Assembly: GCF_000336385.2 (NCBI RefSeq)
Contig: NZ_HG424448.1
Span: 1 to 64,000, forward strand
Reading direction: 5' to 3'
Length of the DNA stretch: 64,000 nucleotides
Source of the DNA: Lysobacter antibioticus HS124
Lineage (GTDB): Bacteria; Pseudomonadota; Gammaproteobacteria; Xanthomonadales; Xanthomonadaceae
Both the position numbers and the translations under genes were made by a program. Shown piece by piece: positions 3,916 to 43,311 of this stretch. The notes beneath the pieces were generated by a model. That model did not search any database and was not told where the DNA came from. It was given only the letters and a program-made list of their open reading frames with translations. The number at the start of each line of letters is the position of its first letter. The stretch's first letter is position 1.

Positions 3916-4998
3916 GTGACCCAATCGCCTCTCAGTTCTTCGCCTTCCCTGTGCCTGCTGCGCCTGTCGGCGCTGGGCGACGTGACCCATGTCGTGCCGC
4001 TGGTCCACACCCTGCGCGCGGCGCGGCCGCAGGCCTCGATCGTGTGGCTGATCGGCAAGGGCGAGCGACGCCTGCTCGACGGCCTGGAGGGGGTCGAGTT
4101 CGTCGAATACGACAAGAAGACCGGCTTGGCCGGGATGCGCGCGGTCCGCCGCGCGCTGCGCCAGCGCGAACTGCCCGGCGGGCGCTTCGAGGCGCTGCTG
4201 CAGATGCAGGTGGCCGCGCGCGCCAACCTGCTGTCGGCCTTCGTCCCGGCCCGGCGCAGGATCGGCTACGACCGCTCGCGCTCCAAGGACCTGCACGGCC
4301 TGTTCGTCAACGAACGCATCGCCGACCGGCCCGGCATCCACGTGCTCGACGCGATCGGCAGCTTCTGCGAGCCGCTCGGCCTGCGCCAGACCGAGGTGCG
4401 CTGGGACTTGCCGGTGCCCGACGAGGCGCGCGAATGGGCGCGCGCGCAATGGCCGCAGGACGGCGTGCCGACCTTGCTGATTTCGCCCTGCTCCAGCCAT
4501 GTCCTGCGCAATTGGCGCAGCGAACGCTACGCCGCGGTCGCCGACCACGCCGCCGGCCAGGGCTGGCGGGTGGTGCTGTGCGGCGGCCGCAGCCAGCTCG
4601 AACGCGACACCGCCGACGCCATCCTCGCCGCCATGCGCCATCCGGCCTTGGATCTGGTCGGCAAGGACACGCTCAAGCAACTGCCGGCCCTGCTCGAACG
4701 CGGCCACCTGCTGATGACTCCCGACTCCGGACCGATGCACATCGCCAACGCGATGGGCACCAAGGTGTTGGGCCTGCACGCGGCCAGCAACCCGGCGCGC
4801 AGCGGGCCCTACAGCGACCGCCGCTACTGCGCCGACCGCTACGACGACGCCGCGCGCAAGTACCTCGGCAAGCCCGCGGCGGAGATCGGCTGGGGCCGCA
4901 AGATCGAGCACGCCGGGGTGATGGACCTGATCACGGTCGAGGACGGCATCGCCGCGTTCGAGCGCTATCGCGCCGACCACCCCGCCGCCGGCGCATGA
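3916..4998 (+). CDS. Glycosyltransferase family 9, LPS heptosyltransferase
   Basis: 360 aa GT9 enzyme, predicted to add a heptose (or related sugar) to the LPS inner core on the cytoplasmic face. The N-terminus [17 protein letters not shown] is the GT9 acceptor-side motif with the conserved Asp of LGD; the C-terminal donor domain has [18 protein letters not shown] and [15 protein letters not shown], typical of WaaC/WaaF. Which heptose it adds cannot be fixed from sequence; a heptosyltransferase I-like role next to kdkA is an inference. The start is GTG at 3916. Upstream in-frame extension overlaps kdkA on the other strand and is not credible. Confidence 0.92.
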
Positions 4999-5303
4999 GC
5001 CCGGCGACCGCGGCCGATACGCCGCCGGCGCCGCCGGAACGTTTGCCGGCCGCCGGCCGGCGCCACGACTACCGGTGCTTCTGGGACCACCGAGGCGCGA
5101 CCGGCCGGGTCGACACGAGCTTGCTTGAGTCAGTGGCATCCGGCGCCGCTCGTGGTCGCGCGCGAGCGTTAAGCCACCGCCGGGCACTGGATGACGGGCA
5201 AGACCGGGCTGTTCGGCGCAGCGCAGGCCCGGCGCGGATACTTGACCAGGGACGCCCCCGGACGGGCCAAGGCCCTGGACCGGGAAATCGCCGAGCTCGA
5301 TGA
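4995..5303 (+). CDS. Doubtful 102-aa reading frame, ATGA-coupled to the heptosyltransferase
   Basis: The ATG at 4995 overlaps the stop of the heptosyltransferase gene, which favours translation. The predicted 102 residues are Pro/Ala/Arg-rich, become low-complexity after about residue 50 and match no family I recognise. From about 5191 a different frame reads more protein-like residues ([18 protein letters not shown]), so a frameshifted remnant is possible. Bases 5300-5586 hold nothing I can support. Confidence 0.25.
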
Positions 5304-5586
5304 GACGACCTGGACCGGCGAGCGTTATCCCTCCCGGGCGGCCGGGAACCTGGCCGAGTTCGGCCCGGCTTCTGCTCGGCACCGGTGCGCCCCTCCACGT
5401 CGAGGCCAGCCCGCTCGCCCCGGTCTGGGGCGGTCTGGGGGGGGGCATCGGACGGGCCGCCGATCAGCCCGACACGCCCCACCCGGGCCGTGGGCGCGGC
5501 CTGAATCCGCTCGGTTTTGCGTTAATGGAAGTGCGGCGTCGCCTGGCCGACACGGTCCGATGCGACGTTGAACCGATCCCACCGAG

Positions 5587-6183
5587 ATGCCCCCCATGGC
5601 TTCGGCCGCCTTCGCCGATTTCCACGCGCCGCCGCCCGGTTCCCTGCCCGCCGACCTGGAGGCGCTGCTGCGTCTGTGGCAGCGCCAGCATCCGCCCTTG
5701 CTGCATCTGCTCGCCGAACTGGGTTGCACGGTGATCGATCGCGACTACCAGCCGGCCCTGCTCGATCCGGAGGGGTATTTGAGCCGCAGCGACCTCGCCG
5801 ACCCGGCGGTGCGCGCCCATCATGCCGCGATCGAAGGCGTCAGCGCCTACATCAGCTTCGTGATCGAGAACGACGAGGGCGAAGTGATCGGCTATTGGCA
5901 CGGCCCGGAGCAGCGTTCGCTGCACGAAGCGCCGATCGTCAAGCTGGACGCCGAAGGACGCTTCGAACTGCTGCCGGGCCGGCACCTGATCGAGGCCCTG
6001 CTGGGCGATCTCGGCCGCGGCGATCCCGCGGCGCTGGGCGAGCTCGCCCGGCTGTTCGCCGGGCTGGGCATCGTCGCGCCGGCGCGCGGTCGCGGCGAGC
6101 CGGTCTGGCCGGACGCGGCCACCCACCCGGCCAGCCTGCAGCAACGCCTGTACGAGGCGGCGCTGGACCCGCGCCGCCACTAG
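5587..6183 (+). CDS. SUKH/SMI1-KNR4-like protein, tentative
   Basis: 198 aa soluble protein with no signal peptide. The middle-to-end region (about residues 80-140) reads ISFVIENDEGEVIGYWHGPE, then APIVKLDAEGRFELLPGRHL, which resembles the beta-rich core of SMI1/KNR4 (SUKH) proteins, many of which act as immunity proteins for polymorphic toxins. No toxin gene is visible next to it, so an immunity role is unproven; it may be a free-standing family member. Met1 (5587) and Met4 (5596) are both possible starts. The gene stands alone, converging with the DUF6165 gene. Confidence 0.7.
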   Translation: MPPMASAAFADFHAPPPGSLPADLEALLRLWQRQHPPLLHLLAELGCTVIDRDYQPALLDPEGYLSRSDLADPAVRAHHAAIEGVSAYISFVIENDEGEVIGYWHGPEQRSLHEAPIVKLDAEGRFELLPGRHLIEALLGDLGRGDPAALGELARLFAGLGIVAPARGRGEPVWPDAATHPASLQQRLYEAALDPRRH

Positions 6184-6210
6184 CCTGCGGGTACGCCCGC
6201 GGCGCGGACT

Positions 6211-6618
6211 TCAGCCGATCGGGCCGGTGCCGTAGTCCTGGTAGGACTTCTCTTCGACGTAGGTCGAGCCCAGGGCCAGGTTGATCTGCTTCTTGACCCG
6301 CGCGCGCTCGTCGTTCTCGACGTAGACCGAACGCGCCAGGCGGATGAACTCGGCGTCGAATTCCTGGCGCTTTTCCTTGATCCGGATGTCGTCCTCGATT
6401 ACCCACAGGCGCTCGTTGACCGCCTTGAGGTCGGCGCGCAGGCGGACGATGTCGTGGCCGGCGGCCGGGTGCGCCATCCAGGTCTTCTCCAGCGCGGTCA
6501 GCTCGTTGCGCACGTTGACCAGCTTGGCCTCGTCGGTCATGCGCTCGGACTTGATCTGCAGGATCGCGATCTTGTCGAGCAGTTCGCCAAAGGACACCGG
6601 GACCAGGATTTCGGACAT
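6211..6618 (-). CDS. DUF6165 family protein
   Basis: 135 aa, small cytoplasmic, strongly helical and charged protein. The N-terminus SEILVPVSFGELLDKIAILQIKS, then RMTDEAKLVNVRNEL, is the conserved signature of the DUF6165 family; the C-terminus carries YVEEKSYQDYG. Homologues often sit near polysaccharide or LPS genes, in keeping with the kdkA/heptosyltransferase pair about 2 kb away, but no biochemical function is known to me. The ATG at 6618 was chosen because the conserved block starts there; the 37 upstream in-frame residues look non-coding. Confidence 0.85.
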   Translation of the reverse strand: MSEILVPVSFGELLDKIAILQIKSERMTDEAKLVNVRNELTALEKTWMAHPAAGHDIVRLRADLKAVNERLWVIEDDIRIKEKRQEFDAEFIRLARSVYVENDERARVKKQINLALGSTYVEEKSYQDYGTGPIG

Positions 6619-6748
6619 GTCGCGCAGCCGTTCATTGCCGTAGGGGCGGCTAGTGTAGCCCGCGGCGCCAAGGGCCGCCGGAGGCTCCGGCACGAACCGC
6701 TTGTCGGCGGGCGCGGCAGCCCGTATCATTCTCGGCTCGCACGCACCC

Positions 6749-6839
<91 letters not shown>

Positions 6840-6852
6840 GATACGCAACACG

Positions 6853-6882
6853 ACGGGTCCTTCGGGGCCCGTTTTGTTTTTC
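6853..6882 (+). terminator. Rho-independent terminator of tRNA-Ser
   Basis: ACGGGTCC-TTCG-GGGCCCGT stem with a stable TTCG loop, followed by TTTGTTTTT, 14 bases after the tRNA 3' end. Confidence 0.9.
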
Positions 6883-7182
6883 CGGCGACGCGCCCGGCCA
6901 CGGCGGCGACAGCGCGTCGCCGAGTCCGGCACGGCGGCGGCGCAGGCTTCATCCTCGGTTGGGCCGACGCAGGCCAGGCTGCGGACACGATCACGTCGCA
7001 CGCAACGCCGGTTCACGCGCGCGAGCGGGCGACGTCGATCCTCAACGCATACACGGCCTTCATCCGCCCTCGTGCATGAAGCCGTGCAGGGATCACGCTT
7101 TCTTGCTACGCGGCCGCTGGACCGCGATGATTCCGTTCATTGCATTGGCGCACACGACGGACGCGAACGGCACGACCGGCAG

Positions 7183-7887
7183 ATGATCGAATTCGGACAC
7201 CTCACGCACGTCGGCCTGCGCCGCGAACTCAACGAAGACACCTACTACGGTGACAGCGAACTCGGGCTGTGGCTGGTCGCCGACGGCATGGGCGGCCACG
7301 AGTACGGCGAGGTCGCCAGCGCGCTCGCGCGCGAGGTGATCGTGCGCGAGGTGCGCAACGGCACCGCCCTGGCGCAGGCGATCCGGATCGCCGACGAAGA
7401 GATCATCCGCATGTCGCGGCGGCGCAACGAAGCCCTGCCGATGGGCACCACGGTGGTCGCCGCGCGCATCGCCGGCAACCGCTTCGAAGTGGCCTGGGTC
7501 GGCGACAGCCGGGTGTATCTGTGGCGCGACGGCCACCTGGCCCAGTTGTCGCAAGACCACAGCTATGTGCAGGAGCTGATCGCCAACGGCGCGATCACCC
7601 ACGAACAGGCGCGCAGCCATCCGCACCGCAACGTGGTGACCCAGGCCCTGGGCGTGACCGACCCGCGCAATCTCAACGTCGAGACCATGACCGGCGAGCT
7701 GCGCTCGGGCATGCAGTTGCTGCTGTGCAGCGACGGCCTGACCGAGGAGGTCGACGACCGCAGCATCGCCCGGGTGCTGGCGCACAACGACTGCAGCGCG
7801 CAGGAGTGCGTCGACTCCCTGGTCGCCGCGGCGCTGGACGGCGGCGGCTCGGACAACGTCACCGTGGTGCTGGTGCGCAGCCACTGA
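7183..7887 (+). CDS. PP2C-family serine/threonine protein phosphatase
   Basis: 234 aa metal-dependent (PPM/PP2C) phosphatase. Motifs: RRELNEDTYY (13-22) with the first acidic residues, LVADGMGGH (31-39) containing metal-ligand Asp34, GTTVVAARI, VAWVGDSRVYLW, LLLCSDGLTEEV and GGSDNVTVVLV near the end. The set is complete, so it should be active. The PrpC/Stp1 type usually opposes a Hanks-type Ser/Thr kinase; none is in this window. ATG at 7183 is used because the conserved core begins immediately after it. The stretch 6883-7182 holds no gene I can support. Confidence 0.95.
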   Translation: MIEFGHLTHVGLRRELNEDTYYGDSELGLWLVADGMGGHEYGEVASALAREVIVREVRNGTALAQAIRIADEEIIRMSRRRNEALPMGTTVVAARIAGNRFEVAWVGDSRVYLWRDGHLAQLSQDHSYVQELIANGAITHEQARSHPHRNVVTQALGVTDPRNLNVETMTGELRSGMQLLLCSDGLTEEVDDRSIARVLAHNDCSAQECVDSLVAAALDGGGSDNVTVVLVRSH

Positions 7888-7944
7888 AGCGGCGCCGCAG
7901 GCGATTGGACGTCTTTAGACGGGCCGCGAAAATCGAATGATTTT

Positions 7945-7980
7945 CAAAAAAATCCAAAACGCGCCGCCTGCCGGCGCGTT
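7945..7980 (-). terminator. Terminator of dnaQ
   Basis: Read on the minus strand: AACGCGCCG stem, 5-nt loop, CGGCGCGTT, then TTGGATTTTTTTG. It lies 23 bases beyond the dnaQ stop codon. Confidence 0.85.
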
Positions 7981-8002
7981 GCATCGTGGGCGCGGCCCGC
8001 GC

Positions 8003-8737
8003 TCAGGCCTCGGCCGCTTCCAGCGCCGGCTCCGGCAGGACCTGGTCCCACACGCACTTGCCGGCCTTCTTGCGCAGCTTCTCCAGCCGCACGCGATGCG
8101 CGGCCAGTTCGTCCGCATGCACCACCACCCGCGGCCGCGCCGCGCCGAGGTCGACCTGGAGGCTGACCTGGGCGTTCTGCGTCGCCACGGCGGTGTCGCC
8201 GAAGCCGATCTCTTCCTGCCCCGAGGTCAGGGCGATGTAGACCTCGCCCAGGATCTGGGCGTCGAGCAGCGCGCCATGCAGCTGACGGTGCGAGTTGTCC
8301 ACGCCCAGGCGCTTGCACAGCGCGTCGAGCGAGTTGCGCTGGCCGGGGAAGCGCTGCCGCGCCAGCAGCAGCGAGTCTTCGATGTTGCTGACGTGGTCGG
8401 CGAGCTTGCCGTACTGAGCGCCGCAGATCGACAGCTCGTTGTTGAGGAAGCCGACGTCGAAGGCCGCGTTGTGGATGATCAGCTCGGCGCCCTGGATGAA
8501 GGCCAGGAATTCCTCGACCACCGCTTCCATCGGCGGCTCGTTGGCCAGCCGTTCCAGCGACAGGCCGGTCACTTCCTGCGCGCCGGCCTCGAACTCGCAA
8601 TCGGGCTTGATGTACTGGTGATACGTGCGGCCGGTCGGGCGGCGCTCGATGAACTCGACGCAACCGATTTCGACCACGCGGTTGCCGCGTTCCCAGCTCA
8701 GGCCGGTGGTTTCGGTGTCCAGGATGATTTGGCGCAT
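8003..8737 (-). CDS. dnaQ: DNA polymerase III epsilon subunit (proofreading exonuclease)
   Basis: 244 aa 3'-5' exonuclease of the replicative polymerase core. DEDDh active site: ExoI LDTETTG (Asp7, Glu9), ExoII NAAFDVGFLNNE (Asp94), ExoIII HGALLDAQIL (His154, Asp159). Length and layout match E. coli DnaQ; the C-terminal residues after about 185 are the polymerase-alpha-binding tail. It follows rnhA on the same strand with a 120-base gap, preserving the gloB-yafS-rnhA-dnaQ neighbourhood of gammaproteobacteria. Confidence 0.98.
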   Translation of the reverse strand: MRQIILDTETTGLSWERGNRVVEIGCVEFIERRPTGRTYHQYIKPDCEFEAGAQEVTGLSLERLANEPPMEAVVEEFLAFIQGAELIIHNAAFDVGFLNNELSICGAQYGKLADHVSNIEDSLLLARQRFPGQRNSLDALCKRLGVDNSHRQLHGALLDAQILGEVYIALTSGQEEIGFGDTAVATQNAQVSLQVDLGAARPRVVVHADELAAHRVRLEKLRKKAGKCVWDQVLPEPALEAAEA

Positions 8738-8857
8738 GGGGGGATTGTCTCAGATGCGTGGAAGGAGCGCGCGGCGGCCGACACGATGCCGGGCGGCCTG
8801 GTCGCGTGCCAGGCGCCTGTGCGCCGCTGCCGGTCTTCGCGGATTCTCGTCAGTGCA

Positions 8858-9328
8858 TTACGGTCGGTAGGGCCGCAGCCGTTCCGCCTGCACGCGCGCC
8901 AGGGTGTCCACGCGCTCGTTGTCCGGGTCGCCGGAATGGCCCTTGACCCACTTCCACTCGATCGAATGGCGCAGGGTCGCCGCGTGCAGGCGCTCCCACA
9001 GGTCGCGGTTCTTGACCGGGTCGCCGCCGGCGGTCTTCCAGCCCTTGCGCACCCAGTTGTTGATCCACTGGGTGATGCCCTGGCGCACGTACTGCGAGTC
9101 GGTGGTCAGCACCACCCGGCACGGCTCGTTGAGCGCTTCCAGGGCCATGATCGCGCCCATCAGCTCCATGCGGTTGTTGGTGGTGTCCGGCTCGCCGCCG
9201 GACAGCTCGCGCTCGCGGCCCTTGTAACGCAGCAAGGCGGCCCAGCCGCCGGGCCCGGGGTTGCCGAGGCAGGCGCCATCGGTGTTGATCTCGACGGTCT
9301 TTTCGACGCCCGTACTGGTTTGGCTCAC
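8858..9328 (-). CDS. rnhA: Ribonuclease HI
   Basis: 156 aa endonuclease that cuts the RNA strand of RNA-DNA hybrids. Catalytic residues Asp17 ([16 protein letters not shown]), Glu55 ([10 protein letters not shown]), Asp77 (LTTDSQYV), His131 and Asp141 are all present; the basic handle [17 protein letters not shown] is intact. The start is GTG at 9328; upstream in-frame codons to an ATG at 9391 would overlap the preceding gene and add unconserved residues. Confidence 0.98.
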
Positions 9329-33559: not shown

Positions 33560-34963
33560 TCAGAGCGGGCCGACCGGCGGGTCCGGCACCGGCGCACGGC
33601 GCGGCAGCCCGCCGCCGAGCTGGTACCAGTCGACCTTGCGGGTGACCGCCATGATCGTGGCCAGGATCAGGAACAGCAGGCCGGCGCCCAGCACCAGCGC
33701 GTTGTCCTCGGACACCAGCAACCCGTACAGGGCGCCGTACAGCGTGGTCAGCATGGCGCCGAAGCCGAGCGCGCGCACCAGGCTGCGCAGCACCGCGCTG
33801 AGATAGAACACCAGCAGGCCGATGCAGGCCGCGCTCGCCGCCAGATAGGCGTAGCCGAAGGCGATGTGCTCGCTGAGGCTGACCAGCAGCAGGAAGAAGA
33901 TCGCCAGCGCCAAGCCGACCAGGCCGTACTGGATCGGGTGGATGCGCAATTGCTTGATCAGTTCGAACATGAAGAAGCCGACGAAGGTCAGCAACACGAA
34001 CAGCAGGCCGTACTTGGTCGCGCGGTCGGCCTGGGTGTAGACGTTGACCGGGTCCTTGAGCGTCACCTGCACTGCGTTGACCTCGCCGATCGGTTCGTTG
34101 GAGTCGTCGTCGCGGGTAAGGCGCACCACCGGCAGCACGTTGCCGGCCAGGTACTGGCGCTGGGCGTTGGTCGCCACCGAGGCCACCTGCCATTCGGCGC
34201 GGAAGCCGTTCTCGCTGATGTCGTCCGAACTCGGCGGGAAGCTGCCGCCGTAGTTCGGGTGCGGCCACTTGGAATGCAGGGCGAAGCGGTTGCTCTTGCC
34301 CAGCGGCACCAGGGCCAGCGATTCGGTGCCGCCGAGGACGAAGCTCAGGTCGGTGTTCACGCGCAACTGAGCGCCCGGCGCCGGCGCCGCCAGGCGGGCG
34401 TGGATGCCGCCGCCGTCGCGCGCGCCCAGACCGTCCTCGATCGCCGCCTCGACGCCGTTCAAACGCAGCTTGGGCGCGCGCAGGCCGCGCACGTCGGCGA
34501 AGGCGTAGCTGATCCACGGCCGGCCGATGCTGCGCACGCGGCCGTTGCGGATTGAATCGACTGCCGGGTCGGCCGGAATGGTCGCGCTGAAATCGGCGCG
34601 CGCATGGCCGGTCCAGTCGTACACCCGCACCTTGTGCAGGCCGAGCTGGCGCACGCGCGGCAGCAGTTCGCCCTCGACCTCGAGCTTGTTCGGGAAGAAA
34701 GTCCAGTGCGCGACTTCGCGGCGCCGCACCTGCTTGATCGCGCCGTCGAGGTCCTTCTCCTGCTCGATCCAGGTCTCTTCGTACGGCACTACCAGCACCG
34801 GCCCGGAAAAGGCCTGCGCGCCGGCGTAGCTGCGCGCCATCTGGTTCACCGCTTCGGCGCGATAGCCCTGCCGCTCGTCGATGATCCCACCGATCATCAA
34901 CAGCGGTATCAGGATCGCCAGGGTCATCCCCAGCACCAACAACATCTTCAGCCACACCCGCAT
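33560..34963 (-). CDS. creD: Inner-membrane protein CreD
   Basis: 467 aa. One N-terminal TM helix (about 7-26), a large periplasmic domain with FSGPVLVVPYEETW and RNGRVRSIGRPWISYAFADVRG, then about six TM helices from residue 320 (YGLLFVLLTFVGFFMFELIK onward). This is the CreD layout; the protein is linked to envelope integrity and is the classic output of CreBC. Its regulators creB and creC lie 6.2 kb away on the same strand, past the fimbria-like operon. ATG at 34963 selected for the conserved start MRVWLKMLLVLG. Confidence 0.93.
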   Translation of the reverse strand: MRVWLKMLLVLGMTLAILIPLLMIGGIIDERQGYRAEAVNQMARSYAGAQAFSGPVLVVPYEETWIEQEKDLDGAIKQVRRREVAHWTFFPNKLEVEGELLPRVRQLGLHKVRVYDWTGHARADFSATIPADPAVDSIRNGRVRSIGRPWISYAFADVRGLRAPKLRLNGVEAAIEDGLGARDGGGIHARLAAPAPGAQLRVNTDLSFVLGGTESLALVPLGKSNRFALHSKWPHPNYGGSFPPSSDDISENGFRAEWQVASVATNAQRQYLAGNVLPVVRLTRDDDSNEPIGEVNAVQVTLKDPVNVYTQADRATKYGLLFVLLTFVGFFMFELIKQLRIHPIQYGLVGLALAIFFLLLVSLSEHIAFGYAYLAASAACIGLLVFYLSAVLRSLVRALGFGAMLTTLYGALYGLLVSEDNALVLGAGLLFLILATIMAVTRKVDWYQLGGGLPRRAPVPDPPVGPL

Positions 34964-35668
34964 GGTCCTGCTCCTGGTTACGAACTCGGAGCGCAGCATG
35001 CGCAGCGCATGCGGGGACGCGATGGCCCGGCGGTGTGGCTGCGGTGAAGCAAGAGTGAAGCGCGCTCGCCGGCCCCGCCACGGTTCGACCGCGGTGCGCC
35101 GTCGCGGCGGTCGGATGCACGGCGGCGGCGCTGCCGCAGGCAGCGGAATCGGCCGCGGCGCCTAAGCGCGCACCGCGCCGATTCGAACATCGCAGCGGCG
35201 CAACGGAATTCGCGGCGAGCGGGCCAGGGCGCCCACGATCTCGCGCCCGTCGACGGCCGCCCTCCGGAGGCAGGCAGGCCGGTACACCGCCGGGGCCGCT
35301 CAGCGGCATGGCCGTCGTCCCCTGCCGCCGCGCCCCCGGCTACGGCCTGCCGAAGCCGCTTCTCGGCGCCGCCCCCTGGAGCCGTCGGCGCATCCACAAA
35401 CATGAACGGGGAAGCGGCCGATCCCGCCCCGCCCGGACCGCCTCAGCCCGCCATTCCTGTCCCGAATAGCCCCGAGGACGTGCCGACCCTGGCCCGAAAA
35501 GACGCAAACCGACGCCGCAGGTCAGCTTCTGACTCACTCGTCCTCACGCAAAAATCACTTTGCGTTAACAATTTCAATGAGCTATGTGTCACATTTTTTG
35601 GCACGAAACCTGCTTCTGCCTGCGGTCAGCGCCCGGAGCCCCGGCCGCTCACCTCCTTTTGGATCCCG
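34964..35668 (+). other. 705-base divergent intergenic region, creD / fimbria-like operon
   Basis: No credible gene. The first 550 bases are GC-rich like the rest of the window; 35530-35620 is clearly AT-richer (TTAACAATTTCAATGAG, ACATTTTTTGG) and looks like the promoter region of the downstream operon. Confidence 0.6.
35547..35593 (+). promoter_or_regulatory. Candidate operator/promoter of the fimbria-like operon
   Basis: An inverted repeat CGCAAAAATCACTTTGCG (35547-35564) is followed by TGAGC-N6-TCACA (35578-35593), which keeps one perfect half of the CRP/Clp site TGTGA-N6-TCACA. Clp is a c-di-GMP-responsive CRP homologue in Xanthomonadaceae. The left half is poor, so this is a suggestion only. 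Confidence 0.3.
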
Positions 35669-36286
35669 ATGATGCGCAAGCTCCCGACCTCTCTTCTGGC
35701 CGCCGCCCTGCTGGCCGGCGCGCCGCTGCTCGCCCAGGCCGAATCGCAGTACAGCACCGGCGCCGGCTCGCCGCTGACCGCCAGCGCCAAGCTCGACTTC
35801 CAGATCACGATTCCGAAGATCCTGTTCCTGCGCGTCGGCAGCGGCGCGGACTACACCAGCACCGCGACGGTCAACCAGATCGCCTTCGCCGTCCCGGCCG
35901 CCAACGTCGGCAACGGCGCCGCCGTCGCCGCGACCGCGACCTCGGGCGACCTCGGCAACGGCGAAGTCACCGCCAAGGTGGTCGGCAACAACGGCAACAT
36001 CACCCTCGGCGCCACCGCGCTGGGCGCACTCAGCAACGGCGCCGCCGGCGACACCATTTCCTACAGCCAGATCGCCACCGCCAGCGACACCGCCGCCCTG
36101 CCGGCGCCGGTGCTGACCGACGGCGCCTCGACGCCGCTCACCATCGCGCCGGCCAGCGGCAAGGTCGTCAACCGCAGCGCGCGTTGGACCTACACCTACC
36201 TCAACAACAACGTCGTCGCCCCGGGCGTGTACGGCGGCGTCAACGCCAACAACAGCCGCGTCACCTACACCGCGTCGATGCCGTAA
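35669..36286 (+). CDS. Pilin-like exported protein, probable major subunit
   Basis: 205 aa. Signal peptide MMRKLPTSLLAAALLAGAPL then LAQA. The mature part is beta-rich and Gly/Ala/Thr/Asn-rich, with FQITIPKILFLRVGSGADY near the start, repeated NGxAxG-type turns, and a C-terminal SRVTYTASMP strand. No Cys. It is related to the next gene product (shared LRVG.G, VTVPAA.LGNG, GD.I.YSQIA.AS and terminal YT.S.P). This, with the downstream chaperone, argues for a polymerising fimbrial subunit; no named pilin family is recognised. First gene of the operon, followed by two hairpins that could set its mRNA level. Confidence 0.7.
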   Translation: MMRKLPTSLLAAALLAGAPLLAQAESQYSTGAGSPLTASAKLDFQITIPKILFLRVGSGADYTSTATVNQIAFAVPAANVGNGAAVAATATSGDLGNGEVTAKVVGNNGNITLGATALGALSNGAAGDTISYSQIATASDTAALPAPVLTDGASTPLTIAPASGKVVNRSARWTYTYLNNNVVAPGVYGGVNANNSRVTYTASMP

Positions 36287-36290
36287 GCGG

Positions 36291-36317
36291 CGGACGGGCG
36301 GCGCGCTCCGCCGTCCG
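36291..36317 (+). terminator. Intercistronic hairpin after the major subunit gene
   Basis: CGGACGG-GCGG...CCGC-CGTCCG stem followed by TTTCG, 5 bases after the stop codon. A second stem CCTCCCGCGG...CCGCGGGAGG lies at 36328-36353. They may stabilise or attenuate the mRNA so that the first gene is expressed more than the rest. Confidence 0.5.
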
Positions 36318-36383
36318 TTTCGCTCCCTCCTCCCGCGGCGCGTCCGCGGGAGGGCTTCCGCCTCCGCACCGGAACCGTCCGTC

Positions 36384-37022
36384 ATGACGCCATCGCCGCG
36401 CGCCATCCGCCAGATCCGCTGGGCCCTGCTGCCGCTGGCCGCGCTGTGGCTCGGCGCCGCCCAGGCCTTCGTGGTCACCATCTCGCCCGGCACCCGCGCG
36501 GTCTATCTGCGCGTCGGCAACGGCGTGTTCACCGGGACCTATCAAGGCGGCGGCACGCCGGGCAGCGGCGGCACGCTCAACAAAGTCTCGGTGACCGTGC
36601 CGGCCGCGGCGCTCGGCAACGGCACCGACCAGCCGATGACCAGCGACGCCACCCAGACCACCAGCCACTACGACGGCTACACCTTCTGCAACGTGCCCGA
36701 CGAGGTCTACATCGGCGGCTTCTACCGCCGTCCGACCACCACCGGCTCGGCCAGCCTGACCGTGTCTTCGCCCGCCGGGCTGAGCAACGGCAACGGCGAC
36801 AGCATCGCCTTCTCGCAGATCGCCTGGGCCAGCAGCGGCAACGGCGATACCGGCACCCAGCCGATTCCGGCCGGCAGCTTCAACGGCGGCGTGCAGAGCC
36901 TGGCCAGCTTCCCGGCCAACAGCTGGCGCGAGAGCTGCCACCGTTTCCGCTATGCCAACGACGCGGTGGTCGCCGCCGGCACCTACACCGGCCGGGTGGT
37001 CTACACCCTGAGCGCGCCATGA
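36384..37022 (+). CDS. Pilin-like exported protein, probable minor subunit or adhesin
   Basis: 212 aa. Signal peptide ends at LWLGAAQA (about residue 28). The mature part starts FVVTISPGTRAVYLRVGNG and resembles the preceding protein, but it has an insert with two Cys (FCNVPDEV and ESCHRF) that may form a disulfide, and it ends GRVVYTLSAP. A larger, disulfide-bearing paralogue placed second fits a minor or tip subunit. The next gene starts within its stop codon. Confidence 0.65.
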   Translation: MTPSPRAIRQIRWALLPLAALWLGAAQAFVVTISPGTRAVYLRVGNGVFTGTYQGGGTPGSGGTLNKVSVTVPAAALGNGTDQPMTSDATQTTSHYDGYTFCNVPDEVYIGGFYRRPTTTGSASLTVSSPAGLSNGNGDSIAFSQIAWASSGNGDTGTQPIPAGSFNGGVQSLASFPANSWRESCHRFRYANDAVVAAGTYTGRVVYTLSAP

Positions 37023-37477
37023 GCCGCTGGCTGGCGATCGCGCTGCTGTCGCTGTGCGCCGGCCTGGCCCAGGCCGCCACCTTCCGCGTCGATGACAGCG
37101 CCAGCCAGGTGCTGGACAACGACGTGCAAATGAAATGGGACGACGCCGTGCCCGGCCAACACGCGCGCCAGACCGTGTCCGGTGCGCTGACCGTGCGGGT
37201 CCGCCTGGACCTGTCGCCCTGGCAGGGCCGCCAGGGCCGTGTCTACATGACCCTGCCCGCCTCGCCTTCGGGCCCGATCCTGACCCAATGGACCACCCGC
37301 GGCCGCCTGCTGCCGGGCGCGCTGCGCGCCGGCGAGCGCGCCCTGGTCTATGCCGGTCCGCTGCCGGCCGGGCTGCTCGAAGACACCGTGCGCCTGAACC
37401 TGCAGGCCGACGGACAGCGCCTGTCGCGCGCCGAGCAACTGCATTTTTCCTTCGAAGTCGACCTGGACACTCCGTGA
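37019..37477 (+). CDS. Small exported protein of the fimbria-like operon
   Basis: 152 aa. Signal peptide MSRWLAIALLSLCAGLAQAA. The mature part is about 130 residues with predicted beta strands (TFRVDDSASQVLDNDVQMKW, GRVYMTLPASPSGPILTQW) and no Cys after the signal. I recognise no family. Position between the second subunit and the chaperone, and 4-base overlaps on the upstream side, suggest a structural or assembly component. Confidence 0.7.
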   Translation: MSRWLAIALLSLCAGLAQAATFRVDDSASQVLDNDVQMKWDDAVPGQHARQTVSGALTVRVRLDLSPWQGRQGRVYMTLPASPSGPILTQWTTRGRLLPGALRAGERALVYAGPLPAGLLEDTVRLNLQADGQRLSRAEQLHFSFEVDLDTP

Positions 37478-38271
37478 TGCGCCTCGCCCGCCTGCGCACC
37501 CTCGCCGCTCTGCTCGCCTCGCTGCCCGTGTGCGTCGCCGCGCAGGGCTTTTCGGCCCTGGTTTCGCCGCCGCGCTTCGAAGACTCGGCCCGGCCCGGCA
37601 CCACGTATCGCAACGTGGTCGAAATCTCCAATCTGTCGCCGGCGTCGGCGCGCTACACGCTCAAGACCGCCGACTGGCGCCTCGACCCGCAGGGCGCGGC
37701 GATCTTCGACGAAGCGCTGGCGCCGGACAGCTGCCGCCCCTGGGTGGGGCTGGAGGCGGCGCAGATCGAAGTCGGCACGCAGGGCAAGCGCCGCTATCGC
37801 TTCGAAGTCGCGGTGCCGGCCGACGCGCCGGCCGGCGAATGCCGCTTCGCGATCCTGCTCGAAGGCGAACCGGAAACCGTGCGCGGCTCGGTCGCGCTGC
37901 CGGTGTCGGGGCGGATCGGCATCATCGTCTACCTCGCCGTCGGCGACGCCGCCGCGCGGCTTCAGACCCGCGCGATGGCGGTGCAGCGCATCGACGGCCG
38001 CGACCTGCCGGTGCTGGAGATCCACAACGCCGGCAACGCCCATTCGCGCCTGGAAGGCCTGATCGACGGCACCGACGCGCAAGGCCGCAAGATCGCCTTC
38101 GCGCCGTCCAACCTGCCCATCCTGCCGGGCGAAACCCGGTCGATCGCATTGCAACCGCAAGGCGACGATCCGGCCACGCCGGCGCCGCCGATCGCCTATC
38201 CCTTGAAACTCGAGGGCGCATTGGACTGGGACCGGCAGCGGCTCGAACTCGACGCCGTATTGAACCGATGA
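37477..38271 (+). CDS. Periplasmic chaperone, PapD-like
   Basis: 264 aa. Signal peptide ends at PVCVAA (about residue 22). The mature protein opens FSALVSPPRFEDSARPGTTY, then RNVVEISNLSPASARYTLKT, the Ig-like first domain of pilus chaperones; Gly-Arg-Ile-Gly-Ile-Ile-Val-Tyr-Leu-Ala-Val at the interdomain region matches the conserved entry to domain two. It is longer than the classical 230-aa chaperones and closer in style to those of alternate (CS1/spore-coat-U-type) systems. Start ATG at 37477 shares one base with the preceding stop; a GTG three bases upstream is in frame. Confidence 0.78.
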   Translation: MRLARLRTLAALLASLPVCVAAQGFSALVSPPRFEDSARPGTTYRNVVEISNLSPASARYTLKTADWRLDPQGAAIFDEALAPDSCRPWVGLEAAQIEVGTQGKRRYRFEVAVPADAPAGECRFAILLEGEPETVRGSVALPVSGRIGIIVYLAVGDAAARLQTRAMAVQRIDGRDLPVLEIHNAGNAHSRLEGLIDGTDAQGRKIAFAPSNLPILPGETRSIALQPQGDDPATPAPPIAYPLKLEGALDWDRQRLELDAVLNR

Positions 38272-40256
38272 GGTTGCCTCCGCCCGGCTCGCACCGGCTC
38301 GTCCTGCGCCGGCTGGCGTGGTGCGTCGCCGGCGCGCTGGTCGCCGCGCCGGTCGCCGCCAGCGAGACGGCGCCTCCCGCCGGCGCGTATCGCGACCGGA
38401 TCATCGCCCCGCAGGCGCTGGCGCCGCTGCCGCCGGACGAGGACGAAGCGCCGGCCGACGACGACGGCCCGCCGCGCGCGTTGCGCGTCGAGCTGCAACT
38501 GGCGCGCAGCGAGCGCGGCGAGCGCAGCTACGACGAGCACGGCCTTTCGGCGGGCGGGTTCTGGGAAACCGCCGATCACGGCAGCCTGTCGCTGGACGCC
38601 AACCTGTTCCGCAGCGATCGCCTGCACGGCGACGAGGGCCGCGACTGGGGCGGACTGGCCACGTTGTGGCAACGCAATCTGTATCTCGACGGCGGCTGGC
38701 GCGTGGACAACGGCCTGGGCGTGCTCAATACGCCGGCGCCGGAGCTGCAGCGCAATCAATACCGCTTTTTCCTGCCGACCGCGCCGCTGGCCGGTGCCAG
38801 CACGCAATGGCGGCAGGACGCCGACGGCACCTCGGCGTACGCCGCGTTCGGCCGCGCCGGCGTCTACGACGGCCGGCGCATGGCCGGCTTCGACCCCGGC
38901 GACGGCCGGGTCGCGGCGGCCGGTGTGCAATGGCGCAGCGGCGCCGGCTGGAACCAGTCGCTGGCGGTGCTGGGCAGCGGCGGCCGGATCGTCGCCGACG
39001 GCCGCGGCGATCTGGACTTCGCCTCCGGCGACAGCCAGGCCGCGCACTGGGCGGCCGGCTGGCGCAGCGAACGCGACAGCGTGCAGTTCAATCTGCTCGG
39101 CAGCCGCAACGACGGCCGCGACGCCGCCGGCGGCTGGATCGACGCCAGCGCCCGGCGCGGCCGCTATCGCCACCACTACGGCGTGTTTTCGCTCGACCCC
39201 GGCCTGGCCTGGGGCGCGCTGCCGATCAACCAGGACGTGCGCGGCGGCTACTACCGCCTGGGCTATCAGTACGGCCGCTGGCAATGGAACGCCGGCGTCG
39301 ACGACATCCGCTCCATCAGCGGCGACGGCTTCGACGGCCAGTACGCCACCGCCTACGCGCGCTATCAGGCCAGCAGCCGGCTCGGCTACGGCGCCAGCCT
39401 CAGTCTGCGCCACGCCGACGGCGACGCGCATGCGCTGCAGTTGTTCGCCGACCGTAGCGGCGAGTGGGGCCAGACCCGGCTGCAATTCGATCACGCCGAC
39501 GGCGACGGCCTCGGCCGCAGCTGGCAGGCCAGCATCGATCAGGCGCTGCCGCTGCGCGCCGGCCGGCGCTTGTCGGTGTCGCTGGGCTACGGCGAGATCG
39601 CCGACGCCGACGCCGGTTCCACCCGCACCGCCACGCTGGCCTTCTACGGCGGCCTGGCCCTGGGCTCGCGCGTCAGCCTCGACGGCAATGCACGCTGGAC
39701 TTACGGCGACGGCGCCAGCGCCTTGCGCGGCACCGACCTCAATCTCGGCCTGGACTGGCGCATCGCTCCGCGCTGGTCGCTGAACCTGGCCGTCTACCAG
39801 AGCCGCGGCCGCCAACGCTCGCCGTTCGCGCTCGATCCGCTGGCGATCGAGTCGCCGTTCCTGGCCCTGCCGCGCGAGCGCTCGGCGCTGTTGAGCCTGC
39901 GTTACGACCGTCAGCGCGGCCGCAGCCAGGCGGTGCTCGGTGGCGCGCCGGGCGCGGCCACCGGCCACGTCGCCGGCTCGCTGTTCCTCGACGACAACGA
40001 CGACGGCGTGCGTGCCGCTTCCGAACAGGCCGCGGCCAACGTCACCGTGGTGCTCGACGGACGCTACGCCGTACGCACCGACAGCAACGGCGAATTCGCC
40101 TTCCCGCGCGTGTCGGTCGGCGAACACACCCTGGAGGTCGTCGCCGACAACCTGCCGCTGCCGTGGTCGCTGCGCGAGTCGTCGGCCCGCCGCCGGATCG
40201 AAGTCAGCGTGCGGCGCACCGCGCGGGTCGATATTCCCGCGGTGCGGCCGCGATGA
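38268..40256 (+). CDS. Outer-membrane barrel protein with C-terminal Sdr/CNA-B-like domain (usher candidate)
   Basis: 662 aa. Signal peptide about 1-31 (ends APVAA). An acidic Pro-rich linker (50-65) is followed by about 470 residues of alternating, aromatic-rich short strands (QYRFFLPTAPL, RRGRYRHHYGVFSLDPG, GGYYRLGYQYGRWQWNAG), as in a large beta barrel. Residues about 565-655 form a separate domain: GSLFLDDNDDGVRAASEQAA, VVLDGRYAVRTDSNGEFAFP, VGEHTLEVVADNLPLPW, like SdrD B/CNA-B or carboxypeptidase-regulatory repeats. The position (after subunits and chaperone) is that of an usher, but the typical N-terminal usher domain, plug and 800-plus length are absent. Confidence 0.7.
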   Translation: MRLPPPGSHRLVLRRLAWCVAGALVAAPVAASETAPPAGAYRDRIIAPQALAPLPPDEDEAPADDDGPPRALRVELQLARSERGERSYDEHGLSAGGFWETADHGSLSLDANLFRSDRLHGDEGRDWGGLATLWQRNLYLDGGWRVDNGLGVLNTPAPELQRNQYRFFLPTAPLAGASTQWRQDADGTSAYAAFGRAGVYDGRRMAGFDPGDGRVAAAGVQWRSGAGWNQSLAVLGSGGRIVADGRGDLDFASGDSQAAHWAAGWRSERDSVQFNLLGSRNDGRDAAGGWIDASARRGRYRHHYGVFSLDPGLAWGALPINQDVRGGYYRLGYQYGRWQWNAGVDDIRSISGDGFDGQYATAYARYQASSRLGYGASLSLRHADGDAHALQLFADRSGEWGQTRLQFDHADGDGLGRSWQASIDQALPLRAGRRLSVSLGYGEIADADAGSTRTATLAFYGGLALGSRVSLDGNARWTYGDGASALRGTDLNLGLDWRIAPRWSLNLAVYQSRGRQRSPFALDPLAIESPFLALPRERSALLSLRYDRQRGRSQAVLGGAPGAATGHVAGSLFLDDNDDGVRAASEQAAANVTVVLDGRYAVRTDSNGEFAFPRVSVGEHTLEVVADNLPLPWSLRESSARRRIEVSVRRTARVDIPAVRPR

Positions 40257-41059
40257 GCGCCTTGCCCGCACCGCCGCGTTCCGCGCCGTCCGCGCCGCAG
40301 CGCCGCAGCGCGTCGGGCGCGTTCGCCATCGCGTTCCAGCCTATCGTCGATCTCGACCGGCGCGAGGTGTTCGCCTACGAAGCGCTCGGCCGCCGCGCCG
40401 GCAGCGACGGCGCCGCCGCGCTGTTCGCCGGCCTCGACGCGCCGGCGCGCGCCGACCTGGAACGGCGCTTGGCCCGCGCCGCACTGCGCGCCGCCGCGCA
40501 CCTGCCCGGCGCGCAACGGCTGTCGATCAACCTCGGCCCGTCGATGCTCGGCGATCCGATCGCCCTGCACGAACTGCACCGCCAAGCGCAGACGCTGGGG
40601 CTGGACGGCCGGCGCATCGTGTTCGAATTCCCCGAGTCCAGCCCGATCGCGCGCAGCGCCTGGAGTCAGGCGCAACGGTTGTTGCGCGACTGGGGCTACG
40701 CCACCGCGATCGACGATTTCGGCGCCGGCTACGCGGGCCTGGAGTTGCTCGCCGATTGCGCGCCGGACCTGATCAAGATCGACATCGGCCTGGTCCGCGG
40801 CATCGCCGCCGACCGCGCCCGCCAGGTGATCGTTGCCGGCCTGGTCTCGATCGCCGCCCAGCTCGGCATCGCCCTGATCGCCGAAGGCGTGGAAACTCAG
40901 GCCGACGCGGCCCAGCTCAAATCGATGGGCATCGTCCTGCAGCAAGGCTATCTGTACGCCCGCGCCCAGGTCGGCCGTTGGCCGCAGCCCGCGCCCGAAA
41001 CCTGGGCGGCGACGGGCGCACGCGCGATCGACCGCCGCGCCGACCGCAGCATTCGGTAA
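40253..41059 (+). CDS. EAL-domain cyclic-di-GMP phosphodiesterase
   Basis: 268 aa stand-alone EAL domain, no membrane span or sensor domain. Catalytic and metal residues look complete: YEALGR (Glu43-Leu45), SINL, FEFPES, IDDFGAGYAGL, IKID, EGVET and the late Gln-Gly-Tyr-Leu-Tyr-Ala. It should hydrolyse c-di-GMP to pGpG. Start overlaps the barrel-gene stop by 4 bases, so it is made with the surface structure; by analogy to fimbrial-operon phosphodiesterases such as MrkJ it may tune the operon or local c-di-GMP. Confidence 0.9.
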   Translation: MSALPAPPRSAPSAPQRRSASGAFAIAFQPIVDLDRREVFAYEALGRRAGSDGAAALFAGLDAPARADLERRLARAALRAAAHLPGAQRLSINLGPSMLGDPIALHELHRQAQTLGLDGRRIVFEFPESSPIARSAWSQAQRLLRDWGYATAIDDFGAGYAGLELLADCAPDLIKIDIGLVRGIAADRARQVIVAGLVSIAAQLGIALIAEGVETQADAAQLKSMGIVLQQGYLYARAQVGRWPQPAPETWAATGARAIDRRADRSIR

Positions 41060-41154: not shown

Positions 41155-41178
41155 GGTCGCGGCTTGCGCCGCTCCTAC
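41155..41178 (-). repeat. REP unit that supplies the creC stop codon
   Basis: Plus strand reads GGTCGCGGCTTGCGCCGCTC then CTAC; the CTA at 41175-41177 is the TAG stop of creC, in the same register as at opgH. Confidence 0.85.
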
Positions 41179-42620
41179 TCCGGAATGGACAGGGCGGCGA
41201 TCGCGCCGGGCTCGCCGTCGCGGTTGCGCAGTTGCGCGCTGCCGCCGTGCAGGGACGCGACCTCGGCGACGAAGCACAGCCCCAGACCGCTGCTGCGGCT
41301 GCCCCCGGCCGGCCGCGGCAGCGAATAGAAGCGTTCGAACACCCGCCCCACCGCATAGTCCGGCACCCCGGGGCCGCGATCGCCGACCTCGACCCGCTGC
41401 GCCTCGCCGATGCGTTGCAGGCGCAACACGATCTCGCCGCCCGGCGGCGAAAAATCGGCTGCATTGTCGAGCAGGTTGATCAACGCCTGACGCAGCAGGA
41501 AAGCGTCGCCGCGCACCGGCGGCAGGCTCGGGTCCAGGTCCAGCAACAGCCGCGCGCCGGCGCCGTCGATGCGCTGCGCGCAATGCTCGGCCGCCTCGCG
41601 CGCGATCGCCGCCAACGCCACCGGTTCGGGCCGTTCCAGGCGTTGGCGATGTTCGACCGCCGCCAGCGCCAGCAGCTTGTCGATCATCTGCGCCAGGCGC
41701 TCGGCCTGACGGCGGATGCTGCCGGCGAAGCGCGCGCGGTCGGCATCGGGCATCGGCGCATCGCCGGGCGGCGATTCCAGCAATTCGGCGCTGCCGCGGA
41801 TCGCCGCCAACGGGCTCTTCATTTCGTGGGTCAGCGTATGCACGTATTGCTCGACGTACTGCTTGCCCTCCAGGCGCGCACGCATGGTCTCCAACGCCTG
41901 ACCGAGTTCGCCGAACTCGCCGGCGGCGTCCGGCGGGTCGGCGCGCTTGCCCGCGGTGACCGCCTGCGCGTAGCGCCGCAGCAGGCCGATCTGGCGCGAC
42001 AGCCACCACGACACGATCACCCCGATGGCCAGCGCCGCGCCCATCAGCACGAAGCCCCAGCGCGTCACCACCGCCTGGCTGCGGGCGATGAACGGCGCGA
42101 TCGCGGCGTTCGGCTTGGCCACGGTCAACGAACCGATCACCCGGCCGCGCTCGTCGCGGATCGGAGCGGCCACGTGCATCACGGTGTCGTCCGGGCGCGC
42201 CGGATCGACCGCGCTGGAGCGCGCGCCGTAGCGGCCGCGCAGGGTCAGGTAGACGTCGTTCCAGCGCGAATAGTCCTGCCCCACCGCGACGCCGCTGCTG
42301 TCGAACACGACGATGCCGCGCGCGTCGGTCACGTAGACGCGATAGCTGGTTTCCGGCTTGCGGAAGCCCCAGATCGCCGCGCCGACGTCGCGTCCGTCCA
42401 GCGAGCGCACGCGCTTGGCGAAGTCGCCGCGGTCGATGCGGCCGGCGAGGAAATCGTCGGTGGCCAGTTCGGCCAGCACGTTGGCGGTGTCGACCAGAGT
42501 GTCTTCCATCGCCTGGCGCACGCCGGGCTTGACCTCGGCCACGAACACCCGCACCAGCAACAACGCCGCGACCGCGACGATCAGGAAGTAGCCGAGGAAG
42601 ATCCGCAGTCCGATGCGCAC
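41175..42620 (-). CDS. creC: Sensor histidine kinase CreC
   Basis: 481 aa inner-membrane kinase. TM1 about 7-27, periplasmic sensor about 28-182 with the CreC-typical VAEVKPGVRQAMEDTLVDTA and NVLAELATDDFLAG, TM2 about 187-206, HAMP, HisKA His265 in HTLTHEMKSPLAAIRG, ATPase N box INLLDNAADFSPPGG, G boxes DRGPGVPD and SSGLGLCFV. Partner of creB 13 bases upstream. The GTG at 42620 puts the conserved MRIGLRIFLGYFLIV at the N-terminus. The stop codon is part of a REP unit; creD, the expected neighbour, is absent here. Confidence 0.94.
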   Translation of the reverse strand: MRIGLRIFLGYFLIVAVAALLLVRVFVAEVKPGVRQAMEDTLVDTANVLAELATDDFLAGRIDRGDFAKRVRSLDGRDVGAAIWGFRKPETSYRVYVTDARGIVVFDSSGVAVGQDYSRWNDVYLTLRGRYGARSSAVDPARPDDTVMHVAAPIRDERGRVIGSLTVAKPNAAIAPFIARSQAVVTRWGFVLMGAALAIGVIVSWWLSRQIGLLRRYAQAVTAGKRADPPDAAGEFGELGQALETMRARLEGKQYVEQYVHTLTHEMKSPLAAIRGSAELLESPPGDAPMPDADRARFAGSIRRQAERLAQMIDKLLALAAVEHRQRLERPEPVALAAIAREAAEHCAQRIDGAGARLLLDLDPSLPPVRGDAFLLRQALINLLDNAADFSPPGGEIVLRLQRIGEAQRVEVGDRGPGVPDYAVGRVFERFYSLPRPAGGSRSSGLGLCFVAEVASLHGGSAQLRNRDGEPGAIAALSIPE

Positions 42621-42633
42621 GAGCGGCCCCGGC

Positions 42634-43311
42634 TTAGGCGTTGTCGAGCGAGTAGCCCAGTCCGCGGTGGGTGCGGATCGGGTCGGCGTCGGCGGCGACT
42701 TCGCGCAGCTTGGCGCGCAGGGTCTTGATATGGGTGTCGACGGTGCGGTCGCCGCTGTCCAGCGCATCGCCCCAGACCCGGTCCATCAACTGCGCGCGCG
42801 ACAGCACCGCGCCCGGGCGCTGCAACAAAGCGGCCAGCAGGCCGTACTCGTAGCGGGTCAGGTCCAGGGCCTGGCCGCGGTAGCGGATGCGCTTGCCCTC
42901 GGCGTCGTGGACGAAGCCCTCCTCGGTCGCCGGCGCGGCCTCGCTGCCGCCGGGACGCAGCCGGCGCAGCACCACCCGCACCCGGGTCGCCAGTTCGCGC
43001 GGCGAGAACGGCTTGGTCACGTAGTCGTCGGCGCCGATCTCCAGGCCGAGGATACGGTCGGCCTCGGCGTTCTGCGCGGTCAGGAAGATCACCGGCAGAT
43101 CGCGCTCGCGGCGCAGCTCGCGGCACAGCGCGAAACCGCCGATGTCGGGCAGGCCGACGTCCAGCACCGCCAGGTCGAACGCCCCGCGCGCCGCCTCGCG
43201 CAGCGCCTCGCCCCCGGTCAGGCAATGCACCGCCTCGTAGCCCTCCGCGCGCAGCGCGTACAACACGGTGTCGGCGATGGCGGATTCGTCTTCTACCAGA
43301 AGGATGCGCAT
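42634..43311 (-). CDS. creB: Response regulator CreB
   Basis: 225 aa OmpR-family regulator. Receiver: VEDES, Asp51 in LAVLDVGLPDIGGF, FLTAQNAE, YVTKPFSPRELATRV. Winged helix: LTRYEYGLLAALLQRPGAVL, RTVDTHIKTLRAKL and HRGLGYSL. Layout and the direct link to creC identify CreB, which answers to growth-medium and cell-wall stress and activates creD in other bacteria. No cre tag (TTCAC-N6-TTCAC) was evident by eye near creD or here. Confidence 0.93.
   Translation of the reverse strand: MRILLVEDESAIADTVLYALRAEGYEAVHCLTGGEALREAARGAFDLAVLDVGLPDIGGFALCRELRRERDLPVIFLTAQNAEADRILGLEIGADDYVTKPFSPRELATRVRVVLRRLRPGGSEAAPATEEGFVHDAEGKRIRYRGQALDLTRYEYGLLAALLQRPGAVLSRAQLMDRVWGDALDSGDRTVDTHIKTLRAKLREVAADADPIRTHRGLGYSLDNA

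Follow-up and report, generated by a model that had tools for sequence, protein, structure and literature searches.

In the 64,000-nucleotide stretch of Lysobacter antibioticus HS124 DNA analysed here (the window; positions 1 to 64,000 of contig NZ_HG424448.1), positions 35669–41059 contain six intact open reading frames, all on the plus strand. The first gene, p1 (35669, or 35672, to 36286), encodes an exported pilin-like protein and is followed, after a gap, by its paralogue p2 (36384–37022; profile comparison 99.8%, E 1.9e-30). Next come p3 (37019–37477), for a small, conserved exported protein that matches no known family, a divergent PapD/archaic-type periplasmic chaperone (37477–38271), a 662-residue protein predicted to form an usher-like outer-membrane pore, here called the barrel (38268–40256), and a predicted EAL-domain cyclic di-GMP (c-di-GMP) phosphodiesterase (40253–41059). 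As read from the sequence, p2 and p3 overlap by 4 bases, p3 and the chaperone gene by 1, the chaperone and barrel genes by 4 and the barrel and EAL genes by 4. A previous sequence-only reading of this DNA had described six genes with the last five joined by 1–4 base overlaps, a paralogous p1/p2 pair and an intact EAL domain, all of which is borne out. Profile and structure searches and a neighbourhood analysis revealed an usher-like barrel fold, a chaperone of the chaperone-usher type and a conserved cassette formed by the first five genes. We consider it probable that these five genes constitute a minimal, previously unclassified surface-fibre system of the chaperone-usher type.

Relatives were gathered from whole genomes and from a species-wide contig collection, and profile searches recovered 75 chaperones, 76 barrels, 75 p1, 70 p2 and 70 p3 proteins. 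The conserved unit, p1-p2-p3-chaperone-barrel, is present in around 77 loci of Gamma-, Beta- and Alphaproteobacteria, with hosts including Lysobacter, Arenimonas, Pseudoxanthomonas, Steroidobacteraceae, Variovorax, Erythrobacter and Porphyrobacter; among 369 sampled genomes of the class, 15 contain the chaperone. Gene order is near-constant, with p1 mostly single-copy and sometimes present twice, and the genomic contexts are many and unrelated. Going by names assigned from sequence, the neighbours include a DNA gyrase-like gene, ribosomal protein and translation-factor genes or an htpG-like chaperone gene in other lineages, and cre-like genes here; comparison of the flanks across loci found no other generally conserved neighbour. 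Constant order in changing surroundings is strong evidence for a joint function of the cassette genes. The gene overlaps also recur in the family (p2-p3 in 55 of 67 loci, p3-chaperone in 52 of 69 and chaperone-barrel in 47 of 65), so their pattern is more than chance.

The cassette is independent of an ordinary usher, since one genome (G031) has it together with zero matches to PF00345 or PF00577. In the genome of the window, a separate ordinary archaic chaperone-usher operon is located on another contig (G000 contig C40, around 4800–9300; L137, L154 and L222) and comprises SCPU subunits, a PapD_N chaperone and a PF00577 usher. The independent presence of this operon argues that the cassette has a distinct function and is not a degraded copy.

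Some loci depart from the common arrangement. One divergent group (L106, L107, L110-L113 and L115) has the barrel gene in the opposite orientation, converging on that of the chaperone, while in L109 and L116 the barrel gene comes first and p3 was not found. Four further loci (L283, L284, L287 and L117) encode homologues of the chaperone (E 1e-24 to 1e-54) but have no barrel gene in the vicinity; in L117, one neighbouring protein has a pilin-like ending (..VTYTIAIP).

Scans of the six products with Pfam, NCBIfam and PADLOC gave chance-level matches only for p1, p2, p3 and the chaperone; Pfam and NCBIfam recognise just the EAL domain and, below the curated cut-off, the C-terminal domain of the barrel, as CarboxypepD_reg/SdrD_B-like. 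A plasmid search for annotated relatives returned none for the barrel and one distant match, in Deinococcus, for the chaperone. No published description of the cassette was found in the open-access literature, which does not cover all journals.

At the level of sequence profiles, the cassette chaperone is a true, divergent member of the PapD superfamily. At its curated cut-off, PF00345 (PapD_N) matches neither the window chaperone nor 52 relatives, and in this genome it matches one place only, on contig C40; Pfam gave only weak matches on diverse relatives of the chaperone, the best to WxLIP (4e-5). Membership of the superfamily follows from four kinds of evidence. First, a hidden Markov model (HMM) made from 30 ordinary chaperone-usher chaperones of related genomes recognises 56 of the 75 cassette chaperones (E<1e-3, lowest 1e-12); an usher HMM recognises none of them. 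Second, hhalign aligns the chaperone with ordinary chaperone-usher chaperones at 97% (E 5e-11) and with alpha-type chaperones at 91%, against 0.2–0.4% for the FadL, usher and WxL controls. Third, the signature of a donor strand is present in strand G1: residues 139, 141 and 143 are hydrophobic in 90, 98 and 98% of 52 members, residues 140, 142 and 144 are mostly non-hydrophobic (polar or proline), and Arg146 is found in 47 of the 52. In the window chaperone, the alternating hydrophobic residues Val139, Leu141 and Val143 precede the conserved Arg146. Fourth, intermediate proteins in other genomes match both the cassette and the ordinary chaperone models. Closest by profile are the archaic-type chaperones, which have the NxG..H.xL motif of the second domain in common with the cassette chaperone. 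Two chaperones matched by both models (L285 and L286) adjoin usher-like genes with weak usher scores and are possible intermediates between the two systems.

The chaperone also resembles the WxLIP proteins of Firmicutes (hhalign 96%, E 4e-9; EfmWxLIP1 in the PDB, entries 9i25/9i1y, E 3e-5), as would be expected if the cassette were a Gram-negative counterpart of the WxL/WxLIP surface complex and did not make pili at all. We regard this as highly improbable: a WxLIP HMM finds 0 of the 75 chaperones at E<1e-3, compared with the 56 found by the chaperone-usher model, and a WxL HMM finds 0 of 75 p1 and 0 of 70 p2 proteins, neither of which aligns with WxL domains, although the profiles used for WxLIP, WxL and alpha ushers are shallow (7–12 sequences) and negatives obtained with them are weaker than those for PapD and PF00577. 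The chaperone family resembles both PapD-type chaperones and WxLIP, yet those two barely align with each other (20%). From its sequence, the family may possibly be an evolutionary bridge between them.

Ushers have been described as machines of five domains, with a 24-stranded barrel, a plug that gates the pore, an N-terminal domain that recruits chaperone-subunit complexes, and two C-terminal domains (PMC8410936). The AlphaFold2 model of the cassette barrel (pLDDT 87.7, the predicted local distance difference test score) has 26 strands by count between residues 70 and 550, followed by a single immunoglobulin/SdrD-B-like domain at residues 560–662, approximately; a second C-terminal domain is absent, and the SdrD_B-like domain was matched in all 56 barrels. 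No plug-sized segment is present in the model, and the longest insertion among 56 members is 21 residues. Ahead of the first strand there are only around 40 low-confidence residues, which do not align with ushers, instead of a folded recruiting domain; both plug and N-terminal domain are absent from all 56 relatives examined. Within the disordered N-terminus, a YxDRxI segment is conserved at residues 41–46, with Asp43 identical in all 56 members. Most of the contact between the usher N-terminal domain and the chaperone in archaic pili comes from an N-terminal tail (PMC9452303), which makes a role of the YxDRxI segment in recruitment a reasonable guess by analogy. PF00577 matched none of the 56 barrel members and, in this genome, matches only contig C40. 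The pore thus lacks each of the usher-defining features tested: the family match, the plug, the N-terminal domain and the pair of C-terminal domains. An ordinary usher missed by threshold was considered and rejected, as neither plug nor N-terminal domain is present and, at E<1e-3, the usher HMM finds 0 of 76 cassette barrels. An end-to-end alignment of the barrel with standard ushers was not found either, in agreement with the unusual outer-membrane component proposed before.

The descent of the barrel is left unsettled by its fold alone, because VIA-align (VIA) gives near-equal results for PapC (Z 15.6, 5.7 Å over 379 residues), an LptD model (Z 15.5 over 392 residues) and the OprD-family porin OccK3 (Z 16.0 over 291). 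One alternative is that the barrel is unrelated to ushers and is instead a large porin or exporter of the LptD or OprD kind, adjoining the chaperone and its substrates by chance. Alignment of the barrel part by itself would allow this, as it scores ushers at 79% and FadL at 72%, with no separation. Foldseek, in contrast, parts ushers from porins by many orders of magnitude: its top 13 rows are all FimD or PapC (5e-15 to 1e-9), and ordinary porins appear at 1e-7 or weaker. The full-length profile aligns with archaic and classical ushers at 97% (E 5e-10), mostly due to the C-terminal domain, which by itself aligns specifically with the C-terminal region of archaic ushers (86%, E 5e-6; FadL control 1%). 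Given also the strict linkage of the barrel to a chaperone of the chaperone-usher type, we think a descent outside the ushers improbable.

The sequences of p1, p2 and p3 all start with a predicted signal peptide. The AlphaFold2 model of p1 has a pLDDT of 91, and it matches known structures only weakly (E 3e-3 at best in Foldseek; Z of 6.7 or less in VIA, with FimA aligned at 3.6 Å over 122 residues). The leading rows of Foldseek and VIA are mostly filaments assembled by donor strands: type 1, P, CFA/I, CS17, CS20 and Csu. The majority of the alignments begin near residues 46–52, leaving residues 25–48, approximately, as a donor-strand-like N-terminal extension. With cleavage sites estimated by a simple rule, the family median of mature residues ahead of a conserved (L)RVG motif is 29 in p1 and 13 in p2, which also has a cysteine-bearing insertion. 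Subunits that donate a strand need an N-terminal extension; a tip subunit does not. Since p1 has the extension and p2 is without it, we propose p1 as the major (rod) subunit and p2 as the tip subunit. Pfam gave no family match on dozens of diverse p1 relatives and no convincing one on ten diverse p2 and p3 members; a match of p1 or p2 to a non-polymerising periplasmic family, which would have made this an ordinary known system, did not appear. A 476-residue, adhesin-like p1 in one locus (L093) was dismissed as a start-codon artefact. This overlong entry inflates the p1 HMM (474 positions), which was kept out of the key claims in favour of an alignment without L093 (A7).

If the subunits do not polymerise, the chaperone may assist the secretion of single adhesive proteins, with p1 and p2 displayed singly through the barrel or kept as a periplasmic or outer-membrane complex. 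This would fit the mostly single copy of p1, its weak fold matches to pilins and a barrel that, having no plug or N-terminal domain, may not assemble subunits processively as ushers do. Single-protein export would not, however, account for an extension in p1 and none in p2, the pattern of rod versus tip, nor for nearest p1 folds that are almost all donor-strand polymers, and we judge it unlikely, though less so than the other alternatives.

The gap between p1 and p2 (36287–36383, plus strand) is the only sizeable intergenic gap of the cassette and contains two strong hairpins. Its folding z averages −2.15 and lies below −2 in 32 of 53 loci, while the window's own gap reaches only −1.64. Hairpin elements of this kind can set a high ratio of major subunit to downstream gene products, and those in the gap are possibly compatible with extra p1 production relative to the genes downstream.

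Several observations count against a fibre-forming chaperone-usher system. In the structural modelling, the similarity of p1 to pilins is slight; p1 and p2 show no sequence link by alignment to SCPU or DUF4402 subunits, both rejected as pilin families for them; no two-domain tip adhesin was recognised in the cassette; VIA ties ushers with OprD-family porins and LptD; and the barrel part does not separate ushers from FadL. Polymerisation and surface display, and likewise control by c-di-GMP, are things that we infer. Membership differs between the components: the chaperone belongs to its superfamily at profile level, and the subunits resemble known pilins in fold alone. Even so, the best reading of the cassette is a system of the same mechanism class as chaperone-usher pathways that stands outside every known usher clade tested, and its function is most likely like theirs. 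The sequence-only reading had proposed a chaperone-assisted export and assembly system of no named pilus type. The chaperone-assisted assembly, the unusual barrel and the lack of a named pilus type stand; a pilus as the product stays an interpretation, and c-di-GMP control finds no support as a general property.

In the chaperone-usher-type system that we favour, p1, p2 and p3 would enter the periplasm through their signal peptides, and the PapD-type chaperone, judging by its homology, would hold p1 and p2 by donating its G1 strand. The complexes would then reach the 26-stranded pore, probably by way of its one C-terminal domain, the conserved segment in the disordered N-terminus, or both; this other recruitment route is proposed because the usual recruiting domain and the plug are absent from the protein. 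Lacking the extension, p2 would be the first subunit, at the tip, and p3 might be an adaptor, a terminator or a second adhesive subunit. We give about even weight to the broader proposal that these loci are an unnamed chaperone-usher branch of Alpha-, Beta- and Gammaproteobacteria, making fibres via a 26-stranded pore without plug or N-terminal domain and with one C-terminal domain, with recruitment and gating unlike those of every studied usher.

The conserved unit does not include the EAL gene. Its product matches PF00563 (1.5e-45) and retains the catalytic residues Glu43, Asn93, Glu125, Asp154, Asp155, Lys175, Glu211 and Gln231, which are invariant among three homologues. The gene is present in only 3 of 77 barrel-bearing loci, 70 of which offer at least 1.2 kilobases of downstream sequence for the check: the window, its nearest relative (L017) and a more distant metagenomic relative (L045), whose EAL protein is 43% identical. 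It is therefore an old but optional accessory of one sub-lineage, and the built-in c-di-GMP control suggested earlier is not supported for the cassette in general. In all three loci, the sequence ATGA allows an overlap between the stop codon of the barrel gene and the start codon of the EAL gene. In this lineage, the translationally coupled enzyme would lower c-di-GMP upon expression of the operon, by analogy with the presumed action of EAL proteins that adjoin other fimbrial operons. A longer, unrelated EAL protein (L061:10148-11494), 34% identical in the EAL domain, comes after another Lysobacter cassette and may have become associated with it independently. In the window, judging by sequence, the operon is enclosed by a creD-like gene (33560–34999) and a creBC-type two-component pair (41175–43311), an insertion site that recurs only in the nearest relative (G008).

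Among known systems, the archaic (sigma, Csu-type) chaperone-usher pili resemble the cassette in their PapD-type chaperone, immunoglobulin-like subunits, outer-membrane pore and proteobacterial range; unlike theirs, the cassette subunits are not SCPU, no CsuE-like two-domain adhesin is recognised, and the pore is not PF00577, with 26 strands instead of 24, no N-terminal domain or plug and one C-terminal domain. Classical type 1 and P pili provide the top structural matches of the barrel (FimD and PapC) and folds with which p1 aligns (FimA, FimF and PapA), but the cassette pore is without their gating plug and recruiting domain and its subunits have no sequence-family match. The alternative (alpha, CS1/CFA/I, ECP) fimbriae are similar in p1 fold (CfaB and CooA) and, as noted, in the chaperone; the cassette barrel, however, aligns with alpha ushers (CooC/EcpC type) at only 15%, whereas alpha ushers align with archaic and classical ones at 99%. 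The Klebsiella fim and fim2 operons also have an adjoining EAL-domain protein, FimK and Fim2K, respectively (PMC3419637), but their chaperone and usher are of the ordinary kind; the EAL gene of the window is translationally coupled to the gene for the pore, and most relatives do not have it. Firmicutes WxL/WxLIP clusters encode a partner protein with two immunoglobulin-like domains and profile similarity to the cassette chaperone (PMC10599100), but have no outer membrane or barrel, and WxL domains are not found in p1 and p2. If our interpretation is true, a system that keeps the chaperone and pilin-like subunits without the N-terminal domain and plug would serve as a natural experiment to tell the essential parts of an usher from the others, and the cassette would give many environmental proteobacteria of soil and water a new type of surface fibre, encoded by genes outside the current Pfam and NCBIfam families.

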